From assembly GCF_019649055.1 (NCBI RefSeq), contig NW_026570277.1:62001-126000 (forward strand): a stretch of DNA of 64,000 nucleotides. The letters run 5' to 3'. Both the position numbers and the translations under genes were made by a program. Positions 1,699-49,600 of the stretch are shown here, one piece after another. Within the stretch, counting starts at the first letter, position 1, and every line of letters begins with the position of its first letter. The stretch comes from Paramacrobiotus metropolitanus (lineage: Eukaryota; Tardigrada; Eutardigrada; Parachela; Macrobiotidae). A model generated the notes under the pieces. It was given only the letters and a program-made list of their open reading frames with translations. It had not been told where the DNA came from and did no database searches.

Positions 1699-2691
1699 CA
1701 GAGAAAGAAAGGGAAAGAGACCACTTTAAAAAAAATGTAATAGACAATAAAACGTTATCTGTGTTTTTCATGTGCATTGTGCGCGCGCATGATGATGAGT
1801 ATCACATAAAAGCATTTTTTATGCGCTAACAAGAGAAGTTGACTATAACGTGCGATGCTGATAAAATAGCCCACCTTTTTCGGAAAAAAACTAGAGATTA
1901 CCAGTGGTATTCGTAGTTTAATATTGCGCACTCGGTGTATAAAAGACGTCAGTTGTATGATAAAAGTACTTGTCGGCTGTGTGACTAATATGTATAAACC
2001 ATGATATAGTATTTAACATAGTATCACCAGTTGAGCTCAACGTCCCCTCCGGGATGCCTCCAGGCTGCTCGAGCCAGTGCACATGAAACCGGCATCTTTT
2101 TGACGAGTGACTCCAGTCGTCCAAGTCAACCAGTTCACGTTACTAGTAAAATATCATATTTTTTGTCATTATGTCGTCAACGTGGTTCTCAGTGTAGTCT
2201 CCGAAAAATCAGCAAAACTAGTAACCAAGATACATTTAATTTTCCCTTTACTAAAAAATTATTGTTAATCTGCCCCTCATATCTTTATTTTTAGAATTTT
2301 TTCTTGAAAGTAAAAATACCATAATTTTTGGGTTTTGATATCGTTGGCTCATTCTTAAAATTTGGCAAATTTTAGGCAGGCAACAAAACCGCACATATTC
2401 TGAAAAAATATTATATCTTCACCGTAAAGATCTGAGACACTTAACGTTGATTATTGAAATTGCCCACGGGGCGCAACATTCAGCAGCCGTTTGTATTGTA
2501 CTGTAAATAGCACATATCGCCTCCAGTTGCCGGCTTGCTGTAGCGGTACCTGGCTTTTCCTTTGCCAGACGCACCGACAGTGGGCTCCTACCGTGTTTGT
2601 TGTTATTCCACCCCAAAAAAATCATAATCAATCATTTATCCAAGTTCGACTCGTGTTATACATTTTTAAATAAAATCAACGCCAATACAGT
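1699..2691. other. intergenic spacer between divergent genes
   Basis: About 1 kb between the start of the leftward XK-related-like gene and the start of the rightward transporter, so both promoters should lie here. It is AT-rich with short ORFs on both strands that show no family motif. No convincing core promoter element was recognised. Confidence 0.5.
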
Positions 2692-5204
2692 ATGGGAAAG
2701 GAACGCTGGTTTATCTTGTTCTACTGTTGCGTTGTGAGCTTCGCCGTGGATTTCTTCTACGATGAGCCGTCAGCGTTGGTGCAACGTTTAACCGCGCAAT
2801 CGGTGTACTGCGTTAATGGGACCGACCAAGCGTGCCTGCATCTGGATATGGTGCAGTTTAATTCCTTCTTCTCTGGAGCATCGTGGGCCAGCGCCGTAGC
2901 GGCAATCGTGGCCGGTATCTGTGTCGATCGCTATGGCGCAATTACGCCGTTGTGGCTGTCGATGGGATTCCTTTTTGCCGGCTCGTAAGTGTTATCCGCC
3001 ATCCGGCAAAAAAATATTTAAAACCCAGGAAATTTAGTTCTTCGTCTGGGATGTAAGTATCATGTTACTATTAAATAACAAAACAAAGATTGTACATATG
3101 AACAGAAATTTTACCCTTTTTGAGCAAATGTTTCTTTAAACAAAAAGCTGTAAACCTGTCAAATTTTGGCAAAAAAATCTGTCTAGTGATTTTAAATTCA
3201 TTTCGAAGGATATAGTTATGCTCACTACGAATAGTAATTGACATTTATAAATACGAGTATGTATGTTAATTAAAAAATGGATCCGGATCCCAAAATACTA
3301 AAGCCATTTAAAACATTTTTATTTGTTTTATGCGTCAGTTATCATTAATATATTCTGACAATTAAATCCAAACAATAAGTACAATACAATCTATAATTAA
3401 AAATAATGAGAACCGTGTAAACAAAATGTTTCGCTACAAATTCGCTGCGCCACAAACTAAAGGAAGTTCTTAATTATTTTATCTGTGATTCAAGTTAATT
3501 CCAGTGTGTTATATCTGAATTTGAAAAAACAAAATTTGTAGAAAACACATTTTTGAATTATTTTTTTTTATGAAGCATGAACCGAGAAATGAAAACATGA
3601 AACATTAAGTTTTTTGAAACATGAAATATTTTTTTTTGATTTATTAAGATTTTTTGCAGTGTAATGTTTGCCGCCGGCAGTTACGCTGCCTCAAACTCTG
3701 GCGCCTTCGGCTGGATGCTGTCCGGGCGTATCCTCTACGGTCTCGGCACCGGGGCGGCGGTGACCATTTGCCACCAGCTGAAAGCCATCTGGTTCCAGTA
3801 CGACGAGCTGGCTGTCTCCTTCGGCCTTCACATTGTCGCTGGGCGGATCGGCAGTGCGGCGGCCTACGCCATTATCGGCACGGCGGTGACCAGTATCGGC
3901 CTGTCCAACTGTCTCTGGATCGGGTGCGGTGTGACCGTCCTGGCGTGTGTGGCCATCGTCGGCCTGGTCAACCGGGAAGAGAGGATTATCGAGAGCGGGA
4001 TCCCCGTGACGGTCACTAAGGCCAGCGAATCCTTCCGCACGCTGGATGGGCTTTACTGGTGTTTTGCCGTGGTTGCGTTTCTTATGTACGGGACGGTGTC
4101 GACCTTCACCGCCAATGGGGTGGCGCTCGTTGCAGTACGTAGCGAAAAAGCTGCTTTCGATATAGAAACTGCTACCTTAGAAAATAAATTTGCACGACAA
4201 AAATCGAAAATCTACCATAGGCTGATATGCGTAATAATTTATATATAACCGCTTACAAATTTAGTTACGCGAATGCGAATAAAATAATAAAACACGCAGT
4301 TTTATAATTACTGTACATTAAATATTCTATCGAAAAGATTCACTGTCAGATTAAATTAAAATTAATTGTACAAATAATCAGGATTGATTACAAATGCCCG
4401 AAGAATTCGGTGTGAGCTTCGATTTCTCAGCGCATTTCCATAAATGCATAAGTAAACAGTTAGAAAAACTGCAGAAAGCATAAATTGTTCATAACTGCTC
4501 GAAAGCCTAAGAAATCAAAACCATGATCGTTTTAGGATGTCTACGGCCGCACCGAGACGGTCTCCAGTCTAATCGTCGGCCTGGTGTACGACATCAGCCT
4601 AATCACGCCCTTCCTGGCCATCTTCCTGGATAAATTCGGGAAACGCGACTACTGGGTGACGTCCAGCAGTATCTTCCTTCTGGCCGGGCTCCTCTTCTTC
4701 CTGATCCCCGCTTGTCCTCCCTGGGTTCTTCCCGTTTTCATTGGCATCGCCTACTCCATCTTTCCCACGACTGTCTACAGCTCCCTACCTCTCATCGTTC
4801 CCCAACGCTCCATGGGCGTGGCCAACGGGGTTATCAAGTTTGGGCAGTACGCCGGGATCGGGAGCTTGACACTGGCTGGAGGAGCGATACTGGACCTCCT
4901 ACCGACGAACGATAACCGGCGTTGGCTGAATTTCGCACTGTTTCTAGCCGGGATGGCGGTACTGGCTTTGGTTATTGCCGTTGTGATCAATTTCTTGAAT
5001 GCCAAGACCGGAAAGCGTTTGACGCCGTCACAGCGGGAGCGCCGTCAGGCGGCCGATATTGAAGAAGTCACGCCCATCAGTGTGGATTTCGGGGTGGAGC
5101 GGCACGGGAGCGTGGTCCGAGAGACGGTCGAGGTTACGAGAAAAATCTCACCGGGTTCGTCGCTAGGCTCGCTGCCGCCGCCTCAGCGCGTTTCCATTTC
5201 CTGA
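2692..5204 (+). CDS. MFSD1-like major facilitator transporter, copy 1
   Basis: Three exons, 2692-2984, 3660-4134 and 4536-5204, give 478 residues with all joins in phase and GT-AG borders. Residues 6-24 form the first helix, ending in a YDEPSAL segment like the one that marks MFSD1 at the end of TM1. Residues about 119-165 carry GRILYGLG, a wF segment and SFGLHIVAGRIGS, the MFSD1 signature around TM4-TM5. Exon 3 supplies the C-terminal six helices, with a DKFGKRDYW loop that fits the MFS loop after TM8. Human MFSD1 is a lysosomal dipeptide exporter that works with GLMP; substrate and location here are inference. One N-glycosylation sequon (NGTD) lies in the first lumenal loop. The tail is short, with EEVTPI shared with copy 2. 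The start is supported by identical placement in copy 2. Confidence 0.85.
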
Positions 5205-39546: not shown

Positions 39547-41544
39547 ATGCAGGGAGTGCGGGAATGCGTAATTATTGGATCGCTGTTTGTGTTTAATGGA
39601 GCGGCACTGCTGGGCGCCAGTCTGCAAGGTAAGGCCTCATCGACAATCATTAACTTCCTTTACTTTTACACCTGACAACAAATAGCGCACAGAAACAATC
39701 TAATGTGAATTCGAAAGAAAAGCGTAATAGCATCCAGTGTCGAATTTTTACTTTCTTTCATCAGTGTTTCTTGGATGGTTTTTTTGCTCTCGCACTTCAA
39801 TACAATCTGTATATTGGTTCTTTCGGGTTCTTAGTAATTGTGCGATAGCAAAATATATCGTGGAATGTGATCCGTTATTACGATAATTCTGTCCTCTGAT
39901 GTCAACTAGACCCACTGTAATTAACTTCCCACATTGATCAGAGGCAGACGAGGCAGATCGCAAAATTAGGCAGCATGCTAACATTGTCCGGTAAGGACCG
40001 GTGTTCACAATCTGATAGCCCAACATTAAGGGAAGCGCCCCGGTACATGATCCCATGCTCGTGTACATGCACGGTACACTTCGCGTAATTGCGCGCACCC
40101 CAAGAAACGTTTTTGCATTGCTCAATGTCATTGTGTAGCCAAATAATTCCAGCATAAACTGGCCTCAACAACATTTCTGCGCACGATAGCCGGTTACATG
40201 TACAGATACTTATAGGTGAAATAACATTTAAAAAATTTTTACCCTGCATGGTTTTACCAAAAGCCTTATTATGGAATAATTTTCGAAAAATTTTGAACGG
40301 AAACGCATTTCAGAAAGATGCAGATCGCTCTGCAAGGCAAACGTTTCCGTGCATGTACAACGAATTTGCTGCCATATATCGAGTCATTTTTAACACCGTC
40401 ATGATTCTGAAAAACGAGCACGACGATCTGTACCTTGCTCCCAGGAAAACTAATTATTCATAATACAATAAAAGCTAATAAGCAGTAACCCAATAACAGT
40501 ATCTAATCAAAGTTACAGATACCAGATCGGTGCAACATAAATACGGATCGTGACCGGTAAATAGCAAGAACTACCGGTATATACAATACATCGCAGATCA
40601 GAAGGGAAATAAAAAGATAGAAGCTGCGACGAAGAAAAGGATACTCGTATAGGTAACACAACGATGAAAACGAAACAGAAATCACTATAAAGGCATTTAG
40701 AGAAAAAACAATCGAATCAAAAATCAAAAGGGAATCGATGCAAAACTTTGATGGTAAAATCAACAAGCAGTGTGCGACAGAAACACATCCATCGCAAATA
40801 AATAACCTCTAGTCGCCGACACTGGGTCTAAACAGCGAAGCGTACACTGTTTTTACGGTGCATCCGAAAAACCGGTGAGCTAATGTTATTGGTCCTAAGT
40901 TGATCATGTTTTTCGTAGTTGCACGGATATTGCCGTATCCCATGAATGTTCTTCACGAATCCCAGCACTACAACAAGACCATTGCCGGTCTGCAGATGCT
41001 CACCGGTTGCATGCACTGGCTGCGGGCCGTTCTCAAAGCGCTTCACTCTACCAACCGTCCGGTCGTTGCCCGGGAGTTCTACAGCACTTTAGCCAATCTG
41101 TTCCTGACGCACAGCATTCACGGCGCGACCGGTCTCATCGTCGTGACCTTCGTAGCCTACACCTTCTTCGAGCACCCGGTAGAACCGCGCCTCGTGGCGG
41201 AGCTCATTGTCAGTGTCAACAGGACCTGTGGAGCAGAAGCCGCTGGACACGCAGATAATCAAGCGGGCAAGCTGATCATGCTGTACACCCTCATCGATCT
41301 TTTTAAGGTCATTAATTACTGGCTGATGGTGATCAATGCCGTGATACTGGTACGGCTGATTTGTACACACTGGTACGGTGCGCCGAAGGTGAGGAAAGTG
41401 CGGCCGGAAATGGAGGATATTACGGAGACAACGACGCTGATCAGTGTGGAGGAGGTGAAAAGCGATACGGATCCGGAGACTGGGCTGCCCATGAAAATGG
41501 ATCCGTACGGTGGAAATTACGCAACATTCCCGTCTCATGCATAA
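39547..41544 (+). CDS. four-pass membrane protein, copy 1, family not recognised
   Basis: Two exons, 39547-39628 and 40919-41544, give 235 residues; the split codon (G then TT) keeps the frame. TM1 is in exon 1 (CVIIGSLFVFNGAALLGASL). Exon 2 opens with ARILPYP and has three more helices near residues 50-72, 95-115 and 165-190, then a cytoplasmic tail of about 45 residues. An N-glycosylation sequon (NKT) and two Cys lie outside the helices. Near the end, DPETGLP and then YATF are shared with the inverted paralogue at 46632-49641, as is the exon structure. The layout resembles tetraspanin- or claudin-like four-helix proteins, but the CCG of tetraspanins and the W-GLW-C-C of claudins are absent, so no family is assigned. 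Confidence 0.65.
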
Positions 41545-42878: not shown

Positions 42879-45739
42879 CTAATGAGCAAGTTTTTCCGGC
42901 ACTATGCTAGCACCGCGACTATTAAAGGGAAAACATGTACTTCTTTGGAGTCTTCCACAATCAAATGTTCGTTGATCCAAATTTGTAAAAGGATACTCTG
43001 CCCAAGTCTTCAGCTCGGGATTGTAAATTTCCATGAACGCCGTTAGGGAGTCTTTGTGTGTCCGTTCGAATCTGCCACCAAATACGAAAATGCGATTATC
43101 CATAACAAAGGCCCCATGCCGAGTTCGAGGTAGTCGAAGAGGGCCAGCGGTTATCCAGTTCATGGTGTCTACATCGAATTGTAGACACGAATCAATACAG
43201 TAATCACGGCGATATGGATTATCGCCGCCGATGACGTACAACGCATCGCCTACTTCAGCAAACGCACAGTTTTGCCGTGGTTTCAATGCTCGGTAAATAC
43301 CCGCAACCGTTCGGTATTTAGAAGTCTTGGTGTCGAAGCGCGCTACCGATTGCTCACTGTAGCCGTCCTGAGAAAGGCCGGAATAGATTTGACCGAGCAG
43401 CATGATGTGGCTGCTGTGTTTAGATGTTGCTACTGGCTCTTCTCTGAAAATAAATTTGAAATCACGCAGAAGTCCGATTTCTGCAGAAGTCAAAACCTTG
43501 TTGTGCGCATCTGGCTAAATATTGGCAGCCAGATGTTACAATTATTAAGCCAGACGCGGCAGTTTTATCATTCATTACTATGCTGATGGCTTATGGCAGA
43601 CTTTAAGAAAACTTCGTTGGTTAACTTGATTTATTGGATTACTAATCCATGAAATTTCAAACTGTCCAGAAAAGAGACATGTACGAACTATGCATACGCA
43701 TTACATATACCCAAAGCCAAACGGTTTCCGAGTAGCGTTTCTTCTTTCTTGACGTCAGACTTACGTTTTATGTTCATCCGTTAAAGTACTCCTTTCTGAA
43801 CGCACTTCGGTGATTTGGTCTCCCGAAACCTTTGCGATTTTTGGTTCGCGGTATTTAAAAGCAGTACCGTCATTTTCCCAAAAAAATATCCGGTCGCCGA
43901 TTGCTACCGGGGGCAGACACCATTCCTGAACCTGGATATCGGTTTGCATGGTACGCCATTCCCGGCTTTGCAGGTCCAAGCAGATAATCGCTAGGGTATG
44001 ACTTGAGGTTCTGTCAATCGAGCCGGCGTTTACCTGACTTGGCAAATCAAACGATTCTTGACCATAGTGAACGATGATGGAACAAAATTCTCGCAGAACT
44101 GGTAAGGTGGAAGCACCACGCCATGCAGTGTTTTAGTTTGCGGGTCGTACAGCTGCACGCGAATTTCCACCAGGTTGACGGCAATATAAAATTCGTGCAC
44201 GATCAGTATTTTGTTATCACTAACAGCCTCCAAAATATTTTCAGTGGTTTCTTGTGCACCGTGCAGTTGAGTATTGCAGACACACGGGCAAATAGTCGCC
44301 GCCGCTTGTTGAGCAGTCTCTGCTGCCAGTTCTTCAATGAGCGCTTTTGTTTTATCAGCCGTGGGCCGGTGTTGAGCACTGCGAGAAAAGCATCTTCGAA
44401 GAAGACCCCGAAAAAGTGACGGGATACTATCTAGTGACCATGCGTATCCATCAATAATTTTTGAAGTAAAGTCGTAGTCGGTCACACCTCTGTCATATAA
44501 AAAGCTGTCAGATTTATTTGCATTCCAGAGCACTTTTTCTTGGATACCGGAACAGTATTCATCTAAATCGAGGATAACGCGCCCAAGGCTCCAACTATCG
44601 GTCTTTCTGCCGACGCTTTCATGGCTTTGACGAAAAAACTTCGTAAGCATTTCCGGAGACATGTACAGGTATGTACCATGAAGTCTTGACGTGTCACTAG
44701 ATACGGTGCGCTCTTCACGCATGTGCACAGAATCGTCGAAATCTCCCACGAACAGTGCGCTGTGACGGTCTTCGTATCGTTTCACCAATACATTCTGTGG
44801 TTTCAGGTCTCCGTGGATGATATTCTGCTGATGTAAGAATCCCAATCCATTAGCAATTTGCAATGCGTAGCAAGCTGCGGCACTTAATTCAAGGAGGGCA
44901 TCGCTTTCTTTTTATTTTATTTAGCAAATCGCTCAGAGTTCCGTCTAAAAAAGCTGTATTTTATTAAACTGCCGTATTACAGTTAAAAAACTGCTGAAGA
45001 CTGTACTAATGAATTTTCCGAATACGTAATTATACTCGTAAGTATTTGCATCAATGTCTACTTTCATTCTCATAATCCTGCCGGTTCAGCTCGCCCTTTC
45101 CCATTCTACAGTGGACTTCCAAAGAAAAAAACGGGAAAAAGAAAACAGCCCACGCGTAGGGTGTATATTACTAGTCCGTTTGCACGAGCTGTACACACGC
45201 TGTGCAATAGTTTCATATACATAATGAATTGTACATCATATATAATATCTATATTTGTGGTACAACTGCGAGAAGTGCGAATGGGCCGAATGGCTACACT
45301 ATCCAGTTGTTGTCAATCGCACTGTTTCAGACTCACCGCTGTAATAGTTCATCAACAGTTCTATAGTCACTCCTCCTCCATATTCTTCAATAAAAAGAAC
45401 CTTATGATAATCAGTTAAATTTTCATGCTGCAGCTTGACCAAACGTTGCAGCTTCTCTTTCAAAGCGCCGTAGCCATCGTCCACAGCTGGGCTGGTTTTA
45501 TGCAGATGTATCACCTTGACCGCAACGTACGTCTCTGTCGGAAAGCTGTCACAACATTTTTGTGAAATACTCCCAAGATGTACAGTCCCAAACTTGCCTT
45601 GTCCAATGATCCTGTTGGCGTACTTCTCATAGTCACACTCTTTTCCACATGATACATATGATACAAGTGCATGCGGTTGGGCGGGCCCGACATCCATCCT
45701 TCCGCAGGATGAAAACAAAGTCCCCTCGGTTATGATCAA
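42879..45739 (-). pseudogene. protein kinase-Kelch repeat fusion, frame broken twice
   Basis: Exon 1 45739-45337 has the kinase N-lobe: glycine loop IIGQGKFGTVHLG and the ATP-binding Lys in YVAVKVIHL. Exon 2 starts 44944 (GTLSDLLNK), then the frame shifts at a T5 run (plus-strand 44909-44913) into ALQIANGLGFLH and IIHGDLKPQNVLV (HGD for HRD), GDFDDS (DFD for DFG), YMSPEM and DSWSLG. The C-lobe runs on into Kelch-type repeats. A second break follows LICQ at 44034; reading resumes from 44010 (SSHTLAIICLDL) to 43765, then exon 43443-42879 carries more Kelch (ALYVIGGDN, RIFVFGGRF). Asp residues for catalysis and metal binding remain. Either breaks are real (pseudogene), a sequence error, or in the second case a 23-base intron that would restore frame. 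The domain order kinase then Kelch is clear. Confidence 0.65.
44011..44033 (-). other. 23-base GT...AG segment whose removal restores frame
   Basis: On the minus strand, GTAAAC...GACAG lies between LICQ and the next Kelch strand. Skipping it keeps the reading frame. Far shorter than any intron seen elsewhere in the window, so an indel or pseudogene lesion is as likely. Confidence 0.3.
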
Positions 45740-46631: not shown

Positions 46632-49600
46632 TCAAGCAGCAGGTGTAAAAGTCGCGTAACCGTGATATTCAAAACCGATTCGGTTACTGACGGGCAAACC
46701 GGTTTCCGGGTCTTTATCTGGTTTGTCATTATCGTCACCGAGCAAATTTGTTGTCTCTGTAACCACAGTGATTGCCAGCAATTCGTCCTTTTCCTCCTCG
46801 AAACCCATTTCCGGATCTCGCTGTTCCTCCCTCTCTTTACGAGTAAGGCGTACCACGCGGACCGCCCCCACAATAGTGCTAGCCAACAGGACGAAGCTAG
46901 TGACCCATATCGTTATGTGCATCAGCCGCAACAGGGCGGCCACTGTCCCCGCTTTGGCTTGCAGATGGCGGGCCTCGACGAGACCGTACTGCTTCTGCAC
47001 GTCGGCCACCACACGGGCTATGTAGTGCGTGTCGACATCATACGGAATAAGGTGCGATCCGCCGTAGATCACCACAATCATCACGGCCGCTGTCAGGAGC
47101 CACTGGCACAGGAACTTCAAGAAGTGCTTGGTGATCGAAACGGTAGGGTCCTCGTCGCATTTGCTGGCGCGAAGGACCGCTATAATACCCAGCATCGCCG
47201 CCGCCACCAGGATCATGGAGCCCACAAATTTATTCAGGAAGTGGTAGGTCGGTAGACCGTCAACGGAATACGGCAGCATCCGGGCGCCTGGAATGCAAAT
47301 CATGCAGACTTACAGTCATGACCATAAATTAATCCGAGCGTGTAGCGTCGCGTGGACGCCTGGTTAACTTATATTATGTCCAATCGTTTATTTATTTGTC
47401 TACTGTAGCATTCAGCCGAAGACAAGTACTTGCGTAATTGTGTACGAGCGTATCCCCGAGTAACACGTTCAAGGTGCACTCGTACTAAATACTGTAAATG
47501 TTTTGTAATGGCCATTTGTTCGTACTACAAAACGTACATAGTTCGCGAAACGTCTGGGCTTTTCGCTAGTACTTGGTATAAAAAAGCTAACTATTATTTT
47601 TATTTCAACCTTGTACAAGCAAATGCCATTTACAATTAAATCCCAAACACCGTATAGCTAGAACAAATAAAACAGCTCTTCTAGCTCTTTTGAGCAACCA
47701 ACAGTTCCCAGAACAGAAGCGGCATTTCCGCGCTGAATTTCAACACTTATGCGCTGCCACAAAAAATTCGGTAGCGCGCGTTTCTCCGGTTTGATCTTTT
47801 ATGCGTCGACCAACTTCATTGATGAACTGACGGGTACTGGCGCCACAAGTTCCTGTAGTCTCCAAGGCCACAGGTTGGAAAAAATGACGATCAGTCAGTT
47901 CCCTGTAATTGTCCCTCTTTCGTTCTTCCGCGCTCTCTGCTGCCGATCCCGCTACCTCTGATGAGCCAGCAATGTACGATATAGCGAATGTGTCGCACAC
48001 TGTTACATCCCAAATCAAAGGAAGGCCGTTCTTCCAAGGGAAAAGAGATAAACCGTCCGGCCGCTTCCCATCTATCCTGCTTAACCCCGGCGGCTCCAGA
48101 ATAGTAGGGACTTTTGCAGATCCTAAGCTGCGCTGAATTAGGCTATTCAGGCTTGCGTGACGCCTGAACCTTCCTTGACTTTTCAAACATGACAAACCGT
48201 GCAAACCTTGGGCGTCAACTACTTCGCCGCATCGGCATTTGTGCTGCTTGCAGATCGGAGCTCCCGTCCGTAGCGCAACAGCGATTCGTAAAGCAGCATC
48301 GTCTAAAAGTGTACCAAGGCTAGCAACCGGCAAGGCGAACAACCAGGCACTGGCATCCCTAGTAGAGGCGGCCAACAGGCGAGCAGAGGCGATAACGTCG
48401 GCGTCCTCCCTTAAGGCTTCCAGCTTCCTGATAGTCAACATTTCCGACCACAGGCGTTGATTGCTTCGGTCCTCCATAGATGGGGCTGATTTTCCAGTCA
48501 ATTCTTCCCAGCACAACTCGACATCCAGTCGGTCATCAGGACAGTCCTCGGGCACAATACTACTGACCAGCTCGTCGGTGGCATAAAGTGAAGAGAGATA
48601 AGCTGGTGCTGCAATTTCTTCCGCTTTCGGCAGACCCAGCCCACCTGATTTAACCGGCAGGGAAGCTTGCCCGTATGTAACATCGTCCATCTTGACATTT
48701 GTGATCTCTTCGGCCTTGGACTTGATCACAACATCAAATTCTCTGAGCTTCTCTGGGTATTTGTAGCAAGGCGCTGCTCTGAGAATGTACATGAGACGCT
48801 AACGCTAACTACTTGGCACCACCAAACACTGACATCCATTTGTTTAATTAATAAATTTTGTAGCGATGGACTTGTAGTAAAATAGGTAAGTGTGGTACAG
48901 TGTAATGGCCAGCCACTTGCAGTACCGTATGTGCTTGCCGGGTAAACTTTCATCATTGGCACCACCGCCAAATCTGTAATATTTAGGTAGAAAGTGGACA
49001 TAGAGCTGTATCTCCACTAAAACAGTCACTTTCAGTAATTTTACATCAGTTTGTGACCTTTCCACAACTGCCACTAATGTTCCCCAAGCGTTACCGACCT
49101 CCAGAAATTTAAAAAGAAACATGGTTAGAAATGCCGATCAACGTTACTAGTATTGCTGAAAAGTTAAAACCGGTATCGGTCGTGGGGCGCATCATTCTGC
49201 CGGGTGGCCGGTATGAATATTATTTGTGCCCAATTGCATAACCTCGGAATTGCATAACTGCTTCGATCGGTCGTAATATGGTTCAAGGATTAATAACATA
49301 TGTTGGGATATTACTGACCGGTAAAGAAAACTGAATTAACTTTCAAAATGCACCTCAATGGTAAGTCCATACGAGGCAATATTTCAGTGCAATGTTTCTT
49401 GCGGGAAATGAATTGCATGGAATGAGGTTAAGCACGTTATACATAGTACAGTTCTTTATTAAGCACGATAGTTAATACGATAGCTACGAAACTCTACCAG
49501 TTAATCTGATCAACACTTACTTGGAATGGCCGCGCCAAGAATTGTCAGTCCATTAAAGAGCAGTACCATCGCCAGGATCGTATATTCGCGCGTGTTCGCC

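Follow-up and report, generated by a model that had tools for sequence, protein, structure and literature searches.

A tardigrade kinase-Kelch fusion gene and the large family that shares its altered active-site motifs

A reading of the DNA sequence alone placed, at positions 42879-45739 of a 64,000-nucleotide stretch of the Paramacrobiotus metropolitanus genome (C57:62001-126000, hereafter the window; the genome holds 169.8 Mb in 533 contigs), one gene that encodes a protein kinase followed by Kelch repeats, with HGD and DFD in place of the HRD and DFG motifs of the active site. Is this one gene or two, and are its altered motifs the marks of a decaying kinase or the property of something larger?

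Structure of the gene and state of the window copy

The gene lies on the reverse strand, its exons within 45697-42879, with a likely ATG at 45697 and a stop codon at 42879-42881, so that the span given above proves correct. Its features, all on the reverse strand, are as follows.

45337..45697, reverse strand: exon 1, start ATG and kinase N-lobe
44945..45336, reverse strand: intron 1; its likely acceptor, TTTTTTAG, has its last base at 44945
43765..44944, reverse strand: exon 2 (extent as in the paralogues), kinase alphaD, C-lobe and Kelch-like blades 1-3, with two frame changes in the window
44909..44913, reverse strand: frame break 1, separating DGTLSDLLNKIK from KESDALLEL at or near a five-A run of the coding strand; its place was deduced from the frames
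44792-44815, reverse strand: catalytic loop HGDLKPQN, HGD replacing HRD; read in the sequence, with a pattern match at C57:106799-106815
44732-44743, reverse strand: DFDD replacing DFG; the metal Asp is kept, Gly is changed to Asp and a further Asp follows
44011..44035, reverse strand: frame break 2, inside a Kelch-like loop; first taken for a 32-base intron, 44002-44033
43444..43764, reverse strand: last intron, donor GTAAGT, acceptor TTTTCAG
42879..43443, reverse strand: last exon, Kelch blades 4-6 and stop

The N-lobe in exon 1 carries a glycine loop (GQGKFG), the beta3 Lys (in VAVK) and the alphaC helix, where Lys occupies the Glu position in the register taken from PDB alignments. Exon 1 ends in a phase-1 donor (G/GTGAGT), and a similar donor is found at the same place in 43 of the 50 Kelch-linked loci that have an N-lobe match. 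Beyond the intron 1 acceptor the frame reads DGTLSDLLNKIK, which resembles the GGDL..LL start of exon 2 in the paralogues. An acceptor at 44907 was rejected as weak, lacking a pyrimidine run and losing this common start, and the 32-base intron at 44002-44033 was rejected because the paralogue profile runs through that place without a gap; the splice model built on these two discarded features is open, with 678 residues plus a stop. The HGD and DFD motifs are present as claimed, and so are the catalytic and metal Asp residues: all four catalytic residues (beta3 Lys, catalytic-loop Asp and Asn, metal Asp) are intact in the window gene.

Searches against Pfam, which the sequence-only reading had proposed as a check, matched both domains above cut-off, with Kelch in the C-terminal exon. 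The C-lobe exon matched PF00069 (E=4.2e-22) and the N-lobe exon PF07714 (E=2.5e-5, just over cut-off). In the last exon several Kelch models exceeded their curated cut-offs, among them PF24681 (E=5.7e-15) and PF01344 (E=8.7e-14), and two Kelch_1 stretches were found. On the open splice model, later rejected, PF00069 extended over both N- and C-lobe (E=8.2e-28). A PDB sequence search with the last exon led to Kelch propellers, namely KEAP1 and SAKe chains, the latter of which we take to be designed propellers. Pfam does not recognise blades 1-3, which lie between the kinase and the last exon; they are Kelch-like by profile comparison with blades 4-6 across 42 loci (E=9.5e-6, probability 83%); on our reading, counted by eye, the propeller would have six blades. 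Up to E=10, Pfam found no BTB or BACK in the splice model or in any of the four exon pieces of the window gene.

The two frame changes in exon 2 leave the window copy with no single clean reading frame in the present assembly, and in this respect the claim of one gene has to be qualified: the fusion stands, the single clean frame does not, since exon 2 as assembled shifts frame twice. Both apparent changes are read relative to the paralogues, most of which lack such breaks, and seven of the 51 Kelch-linked loci besides the window have an exon-2 frame shorter than 330 aa. We sought a near-identical copy of 43950-45000 across the assembly and found none; three other loci match this segment weakly (69-77% over 70-209 bases). 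The window copy would thus be either an assembly error or a young pseudogene. We give a little less than an even chance to the latter, in which the two frameshifts would cut the protein short close to where the C-lobe begins, leaving the relatives as the only functional copies. Such a pseudogene would account for the frame changes, for the short exon-2 frame, as against 330 aa or more in 43 of the 51 Kelch-linked loci (the window being counted among the 51), and for the long end branch of the window in the tree (1.05). However, the exons contain no in-frame stops except those that the two breaks cause, the splice sites and catalytic residues are intact despite long divergence (the nearest compared row has 44% identity), and break 1 falls in the five-A run and may be an assembly error. 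Runs of one base, such as five A, are a common site of these errors.

The join between the two domains can be followed through the breaks with an exon-2 profile made from seven intact paralogues. This profile matched the window at positions 14-319 (E=1.4e-82) in a single frame, running from the C-lobe into the Kelch-like part, and at positions 314-388 (E=2.3e-14) in a second, abutting frame. The C-lobe and the first Kelch-like blades share one exon frame, and the kinase-Kelch join therefore lies within an exon. Together with the occurrence of kinase and Kelch exons side by side in about 78 loci (see below), this bears out the proposed fusion in one gene, which, on the evidence of the assembly, is real. 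That two adjacent genes, a kinase and a Kelch gene, had been taken for one is hardly credible: the two frame breaks of the window copy would favour it, but the C-lobe and the first Kelch-like blades share a frame in the window itself, and one long exon frame spans the join in those 43 of 51 loci.

Several features around the gene were observed in passing. Two related proteins, at 40879-41544 (forward strand) and 46632-47309 (reverse strand), flank it in opposite orientation; they are 27% identical (E=4e-13), look membrane-type by eye, share a terminal TETT..L..DPETGLP...YATF tail and gave no Pfam match at E=0.1 or better. A long frame at 47740-48798 (reverse strand) resembles by eye the C-terminal part of LINE-type retroelement proteins, with no Pfam match up to E=0.1, and fragments that look similar to it adjoin kinase exons at two other loci (L008 and L012). 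Elsewhere in the genome, Cu/Zn superoxide dismutase (SOD; PF00080) gave 24 exon matches on ten contigs; passages of an earlier study report SOD duplication for two tardigrades (PMC5531438).

Size and variation of the family

Searching the genome with the C-lobe exon returned at least 135 matches, and with the Kelch exon at least 151. In the pairing analysis, which left out one weak kinase match and one Kelch match, 66 of the 134 kinase matches were followed within 4 kb by a Kelch match on the same strand, using 64 distinct Kelch matches, and 3 had an upstream or opposite-strand one only. At 14 further loci an N-lobe match lies within 5 kb of a Kelch match (15 Kelch matches, two of them on one N-lobe), so that kinase-family and Kelch exons are paired in about 78 loci (64 + 14). 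Both an N-lobe and a Kelch partner accompany 54 kinase matches, of which 43 were sampled as loci, 9 belong to the window or to previously sampled loci, and C57:682253 and C223:21112 were left out. The alignment used below holds 57 kinase domains, mostly chosen for resemblance to the window in all three parts; two of the 59 loci (L009 and L012) were omitted from it for want of an N-lobe match.

The size of the family is also reflected in counts of motif-encoding DNA. Sequence able to encode HGD[LF]KP occurs 177 times in the genome (8 in a backward control), as compared with 44 for H[RS]D[LF]KP (control 13), five of which read Ser by our own count and at least two of which (L010 and L013) belong to the family. 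Within the HxD[LF]KP form, to which the counts are confined (HRDLAA, HRDIKP and the like fall outside), HGD is therefore the prevailing type of kinase here, the 177 being occurrences of motif DNA for part of which family membership or Kelch is established. The sequence-only reading took kinase-Kelch fusion to be unusual in animals; in the one genome covered here the motif is common. Sequence able to encode IGD[LF]D[DE] occurs 124 times (control 9). Gaps between neighbouring kinase matches on the same contig were shorter than 20 kb in 23 of 66 cases, so that part of the growth of the family looks local. As one element of the explanation that we regard as probable (see below), the window gene would be an old and diverged member of a kinase-Kelch family that is very large and in part duplicated locally.

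Members vary in their make-up. Seven of the 57 tree rows had no Kelch match in the stretch examined, and these are scattered over the tree (seven label changes, no better than shuffles). Two tandem kinase domains precede Kelch in L013 (C19:477237-480842), the first of them reading HSD and SDCDD, and L006 has a second, partial kinase match. L005 (C51:805691-809353), a family kinase with no Kelch match, has at 153-503 a strongly hydrophobic, transmembrane-like segment in a frame directly upstream of the kinase, and is a possible receptor form. In L015 (C150:143084-146683) a frame at 2127-3308, downstream of a Kelch-less family kinase, has a coiled-coil look and a P-loop-like GTKGMGKST; its Pfam matches were weak, all below cut-off.

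The active-site signature

The sequence-only reading had left it undecided whether a kinase with these altered motifs is active, and the 57 aligned domains, all from the same genome and including the window, bear on this question. The residues of catalysis are retained almost throughout: the beta3 Lys in 54 of 57 domains, the HxD Asp in 55/56, the catalytic-loop Asn in 56/56 and the metal Asp in 56 of the 57, with all four kept together in 52 (the exceptions are L002, L007, L028, L050 and L058). The departures are equally regular. Gly stands in the HGD position in 53 of 56 domains; the position of the DFG Gly holds Asp in 55/57 and Gly in none, and is followed by Asp or Glu in 56 domains; and the alphaC Glu position holds Arg or Lys in 54/57, in place of the Glu that usually pairs with the beta3 Lys. 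The window reads DFDD, and its relatives mostly DLDD or DLDE. The register of alphaC comes from profile alignments to ULK1 and other PDB chains, which place the family Arg on the Glu of GKEIKIL, presumably the alphaC Glu of ULK1. HGD and DFD are thus common to nearly all 57 domains and no peculiarity of the window gene. Judged by this conservation they are a family signature and not decay. The earlier idea of a kinase that is altered and may be inactive is borne out by half: the motifs are altered, but HGD with D-[LF]-D-[DE] is the family norm, and the catalytic residues are kept.

The Asp in place of the DFG Gly does not simply follow from HGD. In a control set of 79 HGD-type kinases, which came from viral contigs and bacterial genomes and were located in part through the HGD motif itself, the DFG position held Gly in 61, Ser in 8, Ala in 2, and Asp, Leu and Val in 1 each, with 5 unresolved, so that these kinases mostly keep the Gly. 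The scan behind this control gave 3 loci in viral contigs and 108 relatives in prokaryote genomes (80 kept), generic kinases by their identity (24-51%), and the family Kelch profile found no match beside them in flanks of up to 3 kb a side. HGD is also carried by the human kinase BUB1. What is new is the linked rewiring of the active site (HGD, DFG Gly to Asp, alphaC Glu to Arg or Lys) in a Kelch-fused family.

Could such proteins be pseudokinase scaffolds, whose Kelch and kinase folds only assemble complexes, with no phosphotransfer? We consider this unlikely. It would suit the replacement of the alphaC Glu and of the DFG Gly, each in well over nine tenths of the domains, but the joint retention of Lys, catalytic Asp, Asn and metal Asp in 52 of 57 would be unlikely without catalysis or nucleotide binding. 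Moreover, MNK1/2 carry DFD and are described, in passages of PMC3326643, as kinases with a DFD-out form.

Rates of change, possible function and known systems

The two halves of the protein differ in how fast they change. Median identity among 50 members is 42% for the N-lobe, 47% for the C-lobe and 35% for the Kelch end, and in 1194 of 1225 pairs the C-lobes are more alike than the Kelch parts. In the 123 near pairs (C-lobe identity above 60%; the pairs overlap, and several dS values are near saturation, with dS above 2), every defined dN/dS was below 1, the highest being 0.47 for the N-lobe, 0.39 for the C-lobe and 0.88 for Kelch; positive selection is therefore unsupported. Kelch dN/dS exceeded that of the C-lobe in 72 of the 81 near pairs having both values, the order being reversed in the other 9. 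The tree contains 12 two-row forks, of which L026/L027 and L066/L067 yield no value. Kelch was higher in 9 of the remaining 10 (L034/L055, L046/L051, L042/L049, L036/L038, L028/L045, L057/L064, L041/L043, L040/L048 and L035/L039) and lower in L054/L061, as it was in L047/L063, which is no two-row fork. Between recent duplicates, protein change thus appears mostly slower in the kinase than in Kelch, which fits a conserved enzyme joined to a changing recognition module; relaxed constraint on Kelch would produce the same dN/dS and identity figures.

Fusion, family size, shared signature, retention of catalytic residues and slower kinase change are established from the genome sequence, and on them we infer enzyme activity, a ligand and a function for the family. 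Its unit would be a Ser/Thr-type kinase fused to a Kelch-like propeller that binds a protein or peptide; binding or clustering would switch on the putative kinase, which would then phosphorylate either the partner so bound or a downstream protein that members have in common. Gene duplication, with faster change in Kelch, could in this way give many binding specificities and one conserved enzymatic output, and the alphaC Arg/Lys together with the extra Asp of DLD[DE] may form a family-specific electrostatic switch that replaces the Lys-Glu pair. Taken jointly, with fusion, family, signature and mechanism as its parts, this is the explanation that we regard as probable.

More speculative, and improbable in our estimate, is that the family is an animal counterpart of the receptor-like kinase repertoires of plants, with a very large set of non-RD kinases, Kelch for changing ligands (for example microbial ones, or proteins damaged on drying) and activity gated by alphaC Arg/Lys and DLD[DE] through an inverted salt bridge. 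Further members, on this view, have a second kinase domain, or would sit behind a transmembrane segment instead of having Kelch. We know of no described kinase controlled by such an inverted bridge. Kinases without the HRD Arg are associated with innate immune signalling across kingdoms, according to PMC8463890, and an immune-like or damage-sensing role of the family is for this reason worth testing. A family of cytoskeletal kinases whose Kelch repeats bind actin deserves little credence: passages of PMC5648430 report that Entamoeba EhSrc, which couples kinase and KELCH domains, interacts with actin, but a constant target predicts a conserved Kelch part, at odds with the lower Kelch identity in nearly all the pairs compared above.

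Under the explanation that we favour, one kinase family, much of it Kelch-fused, appears to account for a large part of the kinases in this genome, and linked departures from textbook active-site anatomy are kept across dozens of its members. Here one could test, on material provided by nature, whether working kinases tolerate the joint replacement of the alphaC Glu and the DFG Gly. The family also hints at a repertoire of signalling proteins that is as yet unstudied and that may recognise foreign or damaged proteins.

Known systems share single elements of this design. BTB-Kelch proteins of the KLHL type, such as KEAP1, have Kelch repeats similar in sequence to those of the window gene, but BTB and BACK precede them where the window gene has a kinase. 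MNK1 and MNK2 are CaMK-related kinases, unlike the family, and to our knowledge they contain no Kelch. They resemble it in that Asp replaces the DFG glycine while the metal Asp stays, a DFD that passages of PMC3326643 link to the DFD-out form. The best 60 of 1496 PDB matches to the family profile were mainly ULK, NEK, MAP3K, JAK and CDK, with no MNK among them, and the profile places the kinase in the protein kinase superfamily but in no clear group. Plant non-RD receptor kinases have been duplicated into large families whose recognition part varies; they differ from the tardigrade family in being membrane receptors with other ectodomains, and no Kelch or DLDD is known to us in them. Like it, they lack the Arg before the catalytic Asp, as in EFR (PMC8463890). 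Among open-licence papers, judged by their titles and the opening of their abstracts, we found no literature on a kinase-Kelch family in tardigrades or other animals; passages of PMC5531438 note that, of 365 protein clusters confined to tardigrades whose domains agree between the two species, 27 are kinase clusters. The nearest published architecture found, on the available passages of PMC5648430, is Entamoeba Src with KELCH: EhSrc and EiSrc join a kinase domain and Kelch motifs in one protein, as the family does, but they belong to a distant protist and are described there as Src homologues, with no large family described in those passages and, in the main text, no use of the terms DFG and HRD.
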